Assembly (NCBI RefSeq): GCF_023159225.1
Contig: NC_063171.1
Span: 5,437,501 to 5,501,500 of the forward strand
DNA: 64,000 nucleotides
Origin: Perognathus longimembris pacificus
Taxonomy: Eukaryota; Chordata; Mammalia; Rodentia; Heteromyidae
Direction: 5' to 3'
Shown here: in pieces, positions 2,535 through 39,016 of the stretch
Layout: each line of letters opens with the position of its first letter
Position numbering within the stretch: position 1 is the first letter of the stretch
Made by a program: the position numbers and the translations under genes
The notes under the pieces: model-generated
Told to the model about the DNA's origin: nothing
Databases searched by the model: none
What the model saw: the letters and a program-made list of their open reading frames with translations, nothing else

Positions 2535-4936
2535 GCTTTATCTAAGGGAGATCTGAACCAAGACAGCTCACTGTGCTGAACTAAAGCTGAGAGCTGTGAA
2601 CTGGGCAGGGCCTCAGGCTTTGCAACCTCTGACATTGACCTGAATCTCTTTTCTTCTTGTTACTATCAAATGTCCTTTCCTTTTGGCTGAGTTTCCCTTG
2701 GATCTTTTTCTTTTTAATTTCAAAATCTCTAATAGCTACACCTCTACTTTATTGTGCATATTGGAAACTATCGGTCATCAAAAGCATGCTCCCAGTCATA
2801 CTGAATACCTCATAAACTCTATTACTGTCATTTGTTCAAGGGTTTCAACTTCCTAATTGCTTAATATAACAAGGAAGAATAAAATCTAATGGATTTGAGC
2901 TAAACACAAAGACAATTTTCATTGAAGAATCTATGGAGGATGGAAGTAGTTTCCTTCCTGGAATATATTCTCTTATACTGCTAATTAGACAAGGCCTATG
3001 ACTCATTTTTGTGATTCCCTGGGCTTAACGTGTAAGCCTCTCTAATTGTTTGAAATTCAAACCACCATATAAGCTCCTTGTCTCTTTGTAATAATGTATT
3101 TTTACATTCCAGACCTAGTTCATAATGGATTCCGGCATGACTGAAAAGATGAGTTACTTTTTGTGTATTAGGAACTCCATAGAAATCTCTTCTGGAAATC
3201 GTTTTCCTGTCCTTTGCCAGATAGCCCTCTATTGCATATGTTGCAGGCCCTCTTCTATCAATTTCATCTCCCCAAGCCAATTCTAAGGTTCTTGAAAATC
3301 AAACCATGGCTTTGTCTTGTCTGCTTTCCCTCCCCCTTCCTTCCTCCTTCTCTCCTCATCTGTAAGACAGTAATGGATGTTGGTTAAAGAGTTAGATCAA
3401 AACTAGGGGTCTCCAGGCCACAAAACATGCCCATCGCATTGGGCAGTGAGCTGAGAGGCTGAGAAGAGTGAGGGCTTACATCCTGTGAGCCACAGACAAT
3501 GTGTAGAATGTGGAGAGAGATAATAACCAAGCAGACCCCATGACAGAAAGGGCAGATGCTTGGGAGTCGGTACAGCTTTGAGCTCGTGGTCACTCTACAT
3601 TGGCCAAGAGTGTACTTCATTTTAAAGGCATCTCCATAAATGTACAGAAATTTCTGCCTCAACAATGGAACTGATACTAAAACATGAGCTGATCAACCTG
3701 GAAGATCTTGCAATGTACAGGACAAACATAGAGACACTACTCTAAATAGTCTTCAGAGAAAAGCTTTGCTTTTCCAGCAACCAGATAACCTTGAGGAAAA
3801 GTAACTTTGCCCAAATAATCTTTCTTCCCTTCAGTACCTAGGCGATTTCAGTTTCAACTCAAGCTAATTTTAAAGACAATTTCCTAAAACAGTTTTCAAT
3901 ATGGCAAGATTGGGATCAGCCAGTTGCTGTTTTACATTGTGCAATAAACATGCTTGACATCAGGGAGGGAAAATATTGTATAAATGGATAGATAAATACA
4001 GCAAAATTGTATTGCAAACATGAGGTTTAAGTTGAGGGAACAAATAGCACAGGCCACTAAGGATATTACTGCCTTCATGCATACCTGCACACCTGTATAT
4101 ACAAAGGTAAAATACAGGTTTTTTTGGGGTTAATTGGATCACAAAGTTAAAGTTATGCTTTACTAATATGAGAACTACAATGACATTTTAAATCTGTTGT
4201 GGGTCATTTGCCTTATGGATCAGATTAAGAGAAAATTAAAAACCCAGCCTACTAGAAATTTTCTTTAAAATATCCTAAGAACTCAAAATTTACATTAAGA
4301 GAATACCACAAAATATGTATGGGCCTACCCTGGTTTAAACACAAACAAAAGTCATCGTTATGATATAAATATGGCTTCAAAATCTATAATACAGAACAGA
4401 AGTATGTCCCAATACCCACAATTATAGAAAGTCCACTCTTACTACCCCTTAGTCATGAACATTTATGATTGAGAATGTATAGTTTTACCTGTTTCCAGTC
4501 ATTAAATTCTGAGGTTAATTTCTTTAGTGATAAAACAGACTTGTGCTTATCATTTAAAAAGACAGAAAAGGAATCGTAATGAAGATGTCTGACATAGGAA
4601 CTGTCACAACCAAACACAGACCTTTCTAGATGTAATTAATTTTTTCAAGATAATTTATCTCATTAAAATATGGTAATGTATTATGGTTTCAAGTTATCTG
4701 AAACCTTCCTAAGGGTAAAAGCTAATGTTAATTTTCTTGCAATAAGCAGTGTAATTTGAACCTAAAGGGATCAAGCACATAAAAACAGAAATTGTTCATT
4801 TGTGTTTAAAGTTCTTACAGGAACTTCGTTGTGCCCAGGAGTCCACATATGGATGGCTTGGTATTAGGGCAGAAAAGGGGGCCCAAACAGAGGATAACTT
4901 TCCCAACTGAAACGGCCCAACATTTTCCTTTTAGTG
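2535..4936. other. Non-repetitive-looking A/T-rich DNA
   Basis: No SINE, L1 or coding exon recognised over about 2.4 kb. Open frames of 60-94 codons on the minus strand (2996-4142) carry no known motif and are unremarkable for A/T-rich sequence. Confidence 0.5.
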
Positions 4937-35867: not shown

Positions 35868-35902
35868 TAGCATTGACTTTTCTTTTTTTTTTTTTTTTTT
35901 TT

Positions 35903-36116
35903 GAAGGTTCATAAGGAGGTTTATTAGTGGGGCTATAGTTCCCATGGAAGAGGGAGCTACATGGCGTCTGCACCTTATCCAGGTGGCAGCTTCTCTCTCT
36001 GGGGGTAAAGGGGGAAGAAGGTAGTGAGTAGGAGTGGCTCATTAGGTATGGGTGGATCTGGGGGCTAGTGGGAGGAGCTGAGGATCTGAGGCTAGGGAAA
36101 TGCTAACATTCCCCCA
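35903..36116 (-). mobile_element. LTR-like 3' end (polypurine tract + U3-R) in the chimera
   Basis: On the minus strand a GGGGGAA purine tract (36115-36109) is followed immediately by TGTTAGCATTTCCC (LTR-type TG start at 36108). A C-rich segment and AATAAA (35925-35920) follow, then the A-tail. U3-R is only about 206 nt and no U5 is present, as expected for a polyadenylated RNA end. The family is not assigned. Confidence 0.5.
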
Positions 36117-36967
36117 TTTGTTGTTTATTAATTACAAAGGAGGGGTACCAGGCTGGGAGTATGGGTAGAGTTTGTTTCTTCTGGAACTACTTCCTGCTGA
36201 AAAGGGGCGAAGTAGTCAGGGGTCCCTGATTCGTCATTTGGCCTGGTACCGTCCAGTTTGGTTGGTAAAAGTCCTCATCATTTCCACGAGAATGGTTATC
36301 AGGGCCAATGGGTGTCATGGTCTCCTCTGGCTACCTCTTGCAGCTTGGGCACATCAAGGAGTCACTGGGTCTGGGGTCTTCAGGGTCCATATCTGTGCTG
36401 GGCAGAGCAGTGTAGTAAGAGGATGGCCTTGAACTGCAAGTTCCCAGGTGGCATCCTGGGTGAGGGATGTTATCCTGTTAAAAGAGACTTTTGAGAAGGT
36501 CATGCAAAAAGCTAACAAGTTCACAGGACCAGGTAACATAAACAACATGGGAGAACACACCCTGGGCACAAGCCAGAAAAGTTCCATTTGGAACATAAAC
36601 CCAATTGTGGCCCATTACAAGGAAGGAGGAATAACTAGACTGGGGGCAGGAAGGAAGTGTTTAGGGCTAGTGGACTGGTTGGGAGTTAACCAGTCAGAGG
36701 CATATATATGTAGCAAGTAACAAAGGCAAGAATGCAAGTTTCTGTCCAGATGGAAAATGGACAGGTATGGACATTAGGTGAGTAAACAACTATTCCTCTT
36801 GATCTCCTGGCTCTGATTAATTTTGGAAGGGCAAGTTTAAATTGACTCCATTTAAGATGAGATTTCATCTCCTCTTGCTCGTCTCCATAGTTCCTCATTG
36901 TCAGGATAGACCTCGTCCTGAAGGTCTAGGTGCTCATTGCTTGGATAGCTTGTCCCAGTTGGCATTC

Positions 36968-37137
36968 ACGGGATTTGAACTCAAGGCCTGGTCACTGTCC
37001 CTGAGCACTTCTGCTCGAGGCTAGTGCTCTACCACTTGAGCCACAGTGCCACTTTCAGCATTTGGCTGGTTCTCTTGAGCCATGCTTCCAGTCTGGCTCT
37101 TTGCTGGTTAGTTGGGAGATGGAGTTTTAGAGGAATA
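36968..37137 (-). mobile_element. B1-headed composite SINE fragment within the chimera
   Basis: GATTTGAACTCAAGGCCTGGTC, GCTAGTGCTCTACCACTTGAG, and GGTTAGTTGGGAGATGGAG. The B1 head is missing. It either inserted later or was part of the source RNA. Confidence 0.65.
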
Positions 37138-38539
37138 TTTTTTTTCCCAAGGAGTCTTAGCCATAAAGCCCTTTATGGTTCCAATTAAAGCAACAGGAGA
37201 ACAATAGGAGTAGAGCGTACCTGTAACTTGTTGAGAATTGGCCAATACTTGCCAGAGTTCTGCTGTAATACTTAGAGAACAGCAGACTGAATGAGATCCA
37301 TATGTCATCAAATCAAGTCATATCATTTAACCTTACCAGCAGGTGGAAGAGAACACAAATGAATGACAATCAAGAGGACAAAGGGTCAGGACAATGTAAA
37401 AGTCTCAGCTTCAGCGGATCCGAAGTGGCTGTGTCTTCCATCCTGAATCAGCAGGTTTTGTTAGTCATGTGTGATGGAGGCAGGCAGGAGAGATGAGTTG
37501 GATCTGGGTGAAGCTGTAGTAGCATCTCTCAGAGTCCCCTGGATAGATTGTCACACCTCCTGCTGGGTTGCCTGCAAAATTCTACACAGACTGGTTAAAG
37601 ACATTTGAAATCTCCCAGTGTTCCCTGGTTGCTTACTCTGAGTATTCTGGTTTTTGTAGGCTGGTGCCCTACTGGTTTAAGCAGGGTGACAACTTTAAAA
37701 AGATTTTAGAAGGCTTGGGCCTTTAACCATCTTCCTAGTCACAAAATCCACACAGACTAAAGGCCAACCAAGTCTGCTCTCTGCAGCAGCAAAGACAGTT
37801 TCTGAGGCATGGAGAGGGAAGATACTAATGCTTCCTCAATGCAACCCTGTGGCCACCAAACACAACTCTGATGTTTTTAACCTTGGAGTAAGTCTCAGTT
37901 GCAACTCTGTCATCTTAGGCCTGCTATAAACCCAACTCTAACCTGGGGGGTGGGGGGTAGAGCCAGGGCAGGAGCACTCTGGGCCTGTCAAAATCTTCAC
38001 AGGAAGATCACCAGTGACTCCTAGATTCCCTGAGCAGTTTTGCAAGAGAGAGAGAATAAGGAATCACTAGTAGTGAAACCATGCAGTTTGGGAGCAGACT
38101 GTGGAGGCAGCTTCCTGTAGCCATGGACCGCCACAGTCCAGGCAACTAGCACACATGTCCACAGTCCATGCAGCTAGCACACATGTCGACCTGTATTCTA
38201 TAAAGCAAAATATTAATCCTGGGTCAGGAAAATCGAGGTTAGCAGCCACACTCATTCCAAAATGACTCTGGTCCCTTGATCTTAAAGAGTTTATGAGAGT
38301 ATAGGAGAGAAAAATGGAGAAGCAAAATCTTAGTCTATACGAAAGAATTGTCAGTATCAGATGTACACTTGACTTTCAGCATAGATGAACATAAAGAATA
38401 ACACTTGGTTTTACATCATTGTATTTGTACCACATGTTGTATATTTGAACCTTTTGGAGTTTTTTTTTAAAGACACATTTGCTTGCACCCAAATATGATC
38501 ACTTTTGGTTTAAAACCTGGGTTTTGTTTTTTTTTTTTT

Positions 38540-38586
38540 AATATGGAACGCTTCACGAATTTGCGTGGCATCCTTGCGCAGGGGCC

Positions 38587-38637
<51 letters not shown>

Positions 38638-38643
38638 GAACAC
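38540..38643 (-). pseudogene. U6 snRNA pseudogene (full-length)
   Basis: 104 nt on the minus strand match vertebrate U6 from nucleotide 1 (GTGTTCGCTTCGGCAGCAC) through the AAGGATGCCACGCAAATTCG region to CCATATT. I count two differences from the U6 I remember (C to T at position 4; A to C in GATGACACG). No U6-type upstream promoter (TATA at -30 or PSE) is visible in the A/T-rich host flank, and an A-run replaces the T4 terminator, so it is a retrocopy rather than a working gene. It is the 5' part of the chimeric insertion. Confidence 0.9.
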
Positions 38644-38783
38644 TAACATTGACTTTTCTAAGCAAGAACTTTTTAAAAAAAGAAAATACCACATTGTGAT
38701 CTGGTCATTTCTTCATACTGTTACTTACTGTGATTTAAGATCATCAGATCTATTCTAAGAAAAGGGAGGGAATTGAAACATAT

Positions 38784-39016
38784 AAGAGGTCCAAAAATGG
38801 GCTGGGAATATGGCCTGGTGGCAAGAGTGCTTGCCTCATATACATAAAGCCCCAGGTTCGATTCCTCCAGCACCACATATATAGAAAATGGCCAGAAGTG
38901 GCACTGTGGCTCAAGTGGTAGAGTGCTAGCCTTGAGCAAAAAGAAACCAGGGACAGTGCTCAGCCCCTGAGTCCAAGGGGTCCAGGACTGGCAAAAGAAA
39001 AAAAAAGAGGTCCAAA
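38784..39016 (+). mobile_element. IDL-Geo SINE with 12-bp TSD
   Basis: Full dimer (GGGCTGGGAATATGGCCTGG, GGTTCGATTCC, AGTGGTAGAGTGCTAGCC, CCAGGACTGGC, A-tail). Perfect AAGAGGTCCAAA lies at 38784-38795 and 39005-39016. Confidence 0.93.

Follow-up and report, generated by a model that had tools for sequence, protein, structure and literature searches.

A full-length U6 snRNA copy joined to an LTR retrotransposon retrocopy in a rodent genome, probably through a LINE-1 template jump

In the window analyzed here, a stretch of 64,000 nucleotides from Perognathus longimembris pacificus, a full-length U6 snRNA copy is joined through a run of A's to the 3' part of a polyadenylated LTR retrotransposon RNA, and both lie within a single visible 16-bp target duplication of the LINE-1 (L1) type. 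On a rough weighting, we consider it probable that the structure arose in one L1-mediated insertion, in which the growing cDNA jumped between an A-tract of the element RNA and an A-tail on U6. What the sequences show directly is the arrangement of the insertion, the derivation of the partner from RNA, the L1-type features of its sister copies, and the U-tail class of the window U6. All genomic comparisons were made within one genome, the window's own (G000, 2.2 Gb), whose loci are designated by L-numbers such as L002 and L080.

Results

Structure of the insertion

U6 is the sole Rfam match across the window at curated thresholds (RF00026, 106.9 bits, E 7.3e-27; alignment 38643–38537, minus strand, model positions 1–105). 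Its first base, 38643, immediately adjoins one copy of the target duplication, TAACATTGACTTTTCT (38644–38659); the other, TAGCATTGACTTTTCT (35868–35883), agrees with it at 15 of 16 positions, at a start-to-start distance of 2776. Chance alone would give a 15/16 match at exactly this placement with a probability of about 1e-8 if base frequencies are equal, and with a higher one if the sequence is AT-rich. The nick context at the 5' end of the insertion, GCTT/AGAAAA, is of the L1 type, and a putative empty site would carry the single-copy form CATTGACTTTTCT. On the minus strand, AGAAAAGTCAATGTTA comes first, followed by U6, which begins with its first G and ends in ATATT, then by A13 and CAAAACCC, and by a further ~2.6 kb, with the 3' portion comprising the polypurine tract, TGTTAGC, AATAAA, AACCTTC, A19, and AGAAAAGTCAATGCTA. 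A sequence-only reading had described a full-length minus-strand U6 touching a 16-bp duplication, a matching copy beyond an AATAAA (35925–35920) and an A-tail (35902–35884), and a purine tract (AAATGGGGGAA, 36119–36109) followed by a TG-starting LTR-like end (TGTTAGC at 36108). All these are borne out, and the length of the duplication and the nick site are L1-like, as its proposal of L1 mediation had supposed. The features, from the 5' to the 3' end of the insertion, are as follows:

38644–38659, minus strand: 5' copy of the target duplication, minus-strand sequence AGAAAAGTCAATGTTA (repeat comparison)
38540–38643, minus strand: full-length U6 snRNA copy ending in ATATT, with one T beyond ATAT (Rfam RF00026)
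38527–38539, minus strand: A13 run at the U6/element junction, the exact break being undefined within the run (compare A11 in L002 and A12 in L003)
35903–38526, minus strand: copy of an apparently non-coding LTR retrotransposon RNA, 3' part only, truncated at the 5' end and unspliced (genome matches; U5 missing)
37581–37582, minus strand: approximate 3' splice site used in the poly(A) copy L106, unspliced here
36959–37070, minus strand: SINE-like stretch within the element, limits approximate (inverted-repeat and BLAST matches)
36474–36475, minus strand: approximate 3' splice site used in the poly(A) copies L100 and L102, unspliced here
36109–36119, minus strand: polypurine tract AAATGGGGGAA preceding the 3' LTR (sequence; adjoins the LTR start)
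35903–36108, minus strand: U3-R part of the 3' LTR, TGTTAGC...AACCTTC (LTR matches in L021, L028, and L030)
35920–35925, minus strand: AATAAA polyadenylation signal (sequence)
35884–35902, minus strand: poly(A) tail, A19, or A20 counting the first base of the duplication (sequence)
35868–35883, minus strand: 3' copy of the target duplication, minus-strand sequence AGAAAAGTCAATGCTA (repeat comparison)

A SINE with an A-rich end adjoins the insertion at window positions 38799–39006 and resembles a stretch inside the LTR element. The window U6 differs from a gene-like copy, L080, by two substitutions in 103 nt. Of the 57 U6 copies outside the window, 46 align without gaps, and neither variant is present in any of these.

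The partner is an LTR retrotransposon

Searched against its own genome, the segment 35903–38520 recovered at least 57 matching rows (best 40 of 8151 candidates scored), and these many matches identify the partner as a large repeat family; the best other copy among the matches listed stands at 96% to the window segment. The LTR matches in L021, L028, and L030 begin, like that of the window, at 36108, while R starts near 35999, where the poly(A) copy L100 begins. Proviral copies extend beyond AACCTTC into about 60 bases ending in GCTTTCA, which constitute U5. A matching 5' LTR is present in all seven upstream pieces, that of L037 being split in two, and it is followed by a TTGGTGCCGAAACCCGGGA-like primer site, which we take to be a tRNA-Phe primer-binding site (PBS). 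The LTR-to-LTR length of L002 is 4460 bases, and its 3' LTR has 269; the LTR pairs of five copies diverge by 4–6%, and proviral target duplications are of 5 bp in L003, L010, L012, and L013, and imperfect in L002. The partner thus has two TG..CA LTRs, a PBS, a polypurine tract, and a short target duplication, and is best read as the 3' part of a repeated LTR retrotransposon of about 4.5 kb with a 269-bp LTR and 5-bp duplications. A cellular mRNA was considered as the partner and rejected in the face of a repeat family with LTRs.

In a search for gag or pol domains that would place the element in ERV1, ERVK, or ERVL, no Pfam family was detected in 10 ORFs of the window segment, and four ORFs of L002 gave only Pfam matches below threshold, on which grounds the element looks non-autonomous and, apparently, non-coding. 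The SINE-like stretch at 36959–37070 probably predated the retrocopying, since contiguous matches in other copies run through it. L002 and the window copy have 14 derived sites in common. As a direct parent, L002 was not accepted in view of conflicting LTR sites: both its LTRs hold two changes that the window copy is without, and two other sites, one of them also found in L012, unite the window with the 3' LTR of L002 against its 5' LTR. We regard it as the nearest relative.

The window copy and its sisters derive from RNA

Two positions in the window are telling of its origin: where proviral copies carry U5 it has poly(A), and where they continue into the leader it has U6. Because the provirals run on at both points, the window segment is an RNA copy of the element. 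The earlier claims that an LTR element was the partner and that its polyadenylated RNA had been copied hold up, the first by the LTR-bearing family in its own genome and the second by the poly(A) in place of U5.

Allowing up to two mismatches, the genome has 104 places that match the R end followed by A10, and none that match the reversed control. The 100 places listed (including those in loci L038–L041, L099–L106, and L108–L133) contain 26 exact ones, the window among them; they do not all represent separate L1-type copies, as L040 accounts for two of them and L133 is bounded by LTRs. Fifteen exact places were read at both ends, and 10 of these (L100, L101, L102, L103, L104, L106, L127, L128, L130, and L132) are flanked by 13–20-bp target duplications whose two copies differ at one position at most. 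The duplications of L101, L102, and L104 were read by eye and then checked, and that of L128 is A-rich. With both ends read, no target duplication was found in L105, L129, and L131; L099 is without a clear one and has a possible 5' inversion. The 10 duplications show that L1 has repeatedly copied the RNA of this rodent LTR element, as in HERV-W. Three of the 15 (L100, L102, and L106) begin at or in R and appear spliced. The window copy is uninterrupted through both 3' splice sites, from which its template RNA can be read as unspliced at those two sites.

The locus L133 (reverse strand, ~2866–4015) shows a 5-bp duplication, GGCAA, a left end made up of U3-R, A18, and internal sequence, and a full 3' LTR at its end; perhaps retroviral reverse transcription jumped onto a poly(A) tail there. 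A single perfect 15-bp duplication, AAGAATAGCTGTCTG, in L040 (reverse strand, 226–357) encloses a tandem pair of element 3' ends, both about 30 nt long and both followed by an A-run. We weighed this locus as a precedent for serial jumps, and found that local tandem duplication or nesting fits it too. L107, which extends L041, displays an element poly(A) end followed by what is presumably an L1-like 3' end, itself interrupted by another insertion; it is possibly an element/L1 chimera, too nested to read.

Position of the break within the A-tract of the element

In 23 of 29 other loci, homology to the element extends at least as far as 38525. At the junction, the nearest relatives read CCAAGCC, then A11 (L002) or A12 (L003), then C, where the window has A13; in most other copies the A-tract is shorter and interrupted. 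This context was found in 16 of the 29 loci, the remaining pattern rows being off-target or absent. Since sister copies have an A-tract at the same position, the break must lie somewhere inside the element's own A-tract, and the notion that the run 38539–38527 is necessarily a U6 tail or spacer was rejected on the same grounds. L002 holds only four A-runs of at least six in 4092 bases, and the break falls in one of them.

Among 76 loci not selected for U6, a U6 copy was found only in the window's own, so that, for the loci read, the earlier question whether other copies of the partner lack U6 is answered in the affirmative. When the 58 U6 places were set against the 100 poly(A) places listed, the window pair was the only one within 50 kb.

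Two forms of U6 3' end

We located 58 exact U6 3' ends and compared the 57 outside the window, with short flanks (L042–L098), counting the T's after ATAT and then the A's, at intact 3' ends only. The copies fall into two groups, one with a short U-tail followed by A's and one with a long U-tail (at least four T's) joined directly to other sequence. In the 16 copies with at least five A's, the T count is one to three in 15 and four in one; of the 41 without such a run, 37 have at least four T's, the exceptions being L046, L081, L092, and L080 (Fisher p 2.6e-9, with cut-offs set after the data were seen). A target duplication of 8–18 bp directly follows the tail in 13 of the 16 A-tailed copies, with those of L052 (8 bp) and L073 (two mismatches) being weak, and L048, L049, and L086 being ambiguous. 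Of the 41 copies without an A-run, 31 resemble another copy over 40 nt or more of the 3' flank; many of these flanks are presumably L1 3' ends. L080, with three T's after ATAT and a TATA-like sequence upstream, may be a U6 gene. In L081, U6 is followed by a ~16-nt segment of no assigned origin, ~20 A's, and a 14-bp duplication, and could represent a very short U6 chimera with another RNA.

With its single T and A13, the window U6 departs from the 37 of 41 non-A-run copies that have at least four T's, and by this form it belongs with the A-tailed class rather than with the U6 of direct chimeras. No A-tailed U6 recognizably fused to a partner was seen among the 57 other copies. As described in a 2025 paper (PMC12811392), TUT1 lengthens the U-tail of U6, so that the mature RNA ends in an extended U-tail with a 2',3' cyclic phosphate, and adenylation inhibits the uridylation of Pol III RNAs. 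These processes suggest that the short-U, A-tailed form stems from immature or decay-bound U6, an origin that Doucet 2015 (PMC4476161) proposed for polyadenylated snRNA pseudogenes; an alternative model in the same paper is an early switch from the L1 poly(A) tail to U6.

Discussion

One insertion with a template jump, or two nested insertions

In the reading that we consider probable, the L1 endonuclease would have nicked the target at GCTT/AGAAAA, and ORF2p would have reverse-transcribed the poly(A) tail and then ~2.6 kb of the unspliced, non-autonomous LTR retrotransposon RNA. Once synthesis reached the A-tract inside the element, which is A11–12 in the closest relatives, the cDNA would have ended in a T-run and jumped to a U6 RNA, most likely a short-U-tailed one with an oligo(A) tail pairing to the T's; U6 would then have been copied through to its 5' end, and joining of the chimeric cDNA to the target would have produced the 16-bp duplication. 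We infer the jump, its A:T pairing, and the status of the whole as one event. A single duplication brackets both parts, and U6 directly abuts its 5' copy. The location of the break in an A-tract that belongs to the element makes one event the better reading, as a break in one of the four L002 A-runs of at least six is expected if T:A pairing guided the jump. Further support comes from the poly(A) in place of U5, the continuation of sister copies past the junction, the restriction of U6 to the window's own locus among the 76, the frequency with which L1 has copied the RNA of this element, and the single T of the window U6, a form typical of A-tailed copies. The earlier proposal of one insertion with a jump to U6 is partly supported: the single visible duplication on which it leaned is not proof, because an all-A nested duplication would give the same final structure.

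That structure would also be left by two nested L1 insertions, a less probable but serious alternative: a U6/poly(A) pseudogene with the 16-bp duplication would have been made first, and the element RNA inserted later at ATATT/AAAA, where the U6 A-tail begins, the second, all-A duplication being invisible and the outer one seeming to bracket both. The ATATT plus A13 of the window U6 resembles the A-tailed copies (one to three T's in 15 of 16) and is also the form of a stand-alone U6/poly(A) pseudogene, which counts against one event, and 13 of the 16 A-tailed copies have a duplication directly after the tail. No further case of the proposed jump turned up in the 57 U6 copies outside the window, and no other A-tailed U6 here is fused to a recognized partner. 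ATATT/AAAA suits the L1 endonuclease, whose site is given as TT/AAAA in Law and Burns 2026, and microhomology could favor a break in the A-tract under nesting too. The right-hand A20 exceeds the A-runs of 29 other poly(A) places (9–18), a slight lean toward nesting, where an extra A-duplication is expected. Against this, the second duplication must fit within 13 A's, whereas 16 of 23 duplications were read at 14 bp or more; the truncation of the element must have hit its own A-tract by chance or microhomology; and the tails of the 13 A-tailed U6 copies that could be resolved are all free of nested elements, although we would expect L1 and SINE insertions far to outnumber those of the LTR element. 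Relative dating of U6 and element gave no resolution: U6 plus duplication show 3 differences in 119 positions and the element 18 private changes in 1900, which are indistinguishable (p 0.12), so the ages do not decide between one event and two.

Within the one-event reading, a more specific proposition, which we put forward tentatively as a real possibility, is that the nascent cDNA, at an internal A-tract of a retroviral RNA, paired through its T's with the A-tail of an oligoadenylated and under-uridylated U6, which the L1 reverse transcriptase thereby captured. Were this true, there would be two U6 routes with readable scars: mature U6 would leave five or more U's and a direct junction, and decay-bound, adenylated U6 a short U-tail and an A-run, such that U-tail length at mammalian U6 copies would report the route used.

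Ligation and retroviral routes

A second alternative, in which U6 and element RNA were first ligated by an RtcB-type activity and then retrotransposed as a single template, is improbable. Such a ligase requires U6 with its mature, cyclic-phosphate end. In favor of ligation, a complete U6 lies 5' of its partner and is oriented like it, which is also true of U6/LINE-1 chimeras, where ligation counts as one of two published routes (Law and Burns 2026). However, the mature U6 carries an extended U-tail along with the 2',3' cyclic phosphate (PMC12811392), and the window U6 has fewer T's after ATAT than L080 encodes (one against three) and stands at an A-run, unlike the 37 long-U-tailed of the 41 copies without one. 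Finally, packaging of U6 with the element RNA, followed by reverse transcription and integration by a retroviral enzyme instead of L1, finds some support in 2004 work cited by Doucet et al. (PMC4476161) and in an odd LTR-bounded recombinant with an internal A-run in the same element family (L133), but is highly implausible given the poly(A) tail without a U5 end, a 16-bp rather than 5-bp duplication, and an L1-type nick site.

Comparison with known chimeras and retrocopies

U6/L1 and U6/pseudogene chimeras, as well as U6/poly(A) pseudogenes, have been published (Doucet 2015, PMC4476161, with Buzdin 2003 and Garcia-Perez 2007 as cited therein for U6 chimeras), and Giles et al. 2004 is cited in the same source for snRNA copies near LTR elements. 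In the literature searched, with incomplete journal coverage, we found no U6–ERV retrocopy of the present structure. Like U6/LINE-1 and U6/pseudogene chimeras (PMC4476161), the window insertion has a full-length 5' U6 in the same orientation as a 5'-truncated partner derived from a polyadenylated RNA, one bracketing L1-type duplication, and an L1-like nick. It is distinguished from the U6/LINE-1 chimeras by its LTR-retrotransposon partner and A-run junction, and from most partner-joined U6 copies of the same genome by its short U-tail, which falls below the four T's that we used to delimit the latter (a measure of our own and not a published definition). The A-tract at the U6 3' end and the L1-type duplication and nick recall instead the U6/poly(A) pseudogenes (PMC4476161), and the short U-tail is shared with 15 of the 16 A-tailed U6 copies of the same genome; yet, where in such pseudogenes the duplication directly follows the A-tail, here the A-run is followed by the 2.6-kb element and a second poly(A). 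Two explanations have been named for how L1 chimeras acquire U6, RNA ligation and template switching (Law and Burns 2026). A chimera whose U6 end would not readily arise by ligation is a test case for template switching, and the contrast of a short U-tail with an A-run and a long U-tail without one can be counted in any mammalian genome, making the question testable from sequence.

The copies of the element itself parallel the processed pseudogenes of HERV-W, the sole human ERV group so mobilized according to a 2017 review (PMC5537654). Like these, they are numerous and L1-made, end in U3-R and poly(A) without U5, start in some cases at R-U5, and have TT/AAAA-like sites and short duplications, of 5–15 nt in HERV-W and 13–20 bp in the sister copies of the rodent element. 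The rodent element is a different and apparently non-coding one, with 3 of 15 copies looking spliced and the window copy accompanied by U6 (PMC5537654 for HERV-W). A rodent LTR element whose RNA has repeatedly been copied by L1 thus adds to the HERV-W case.
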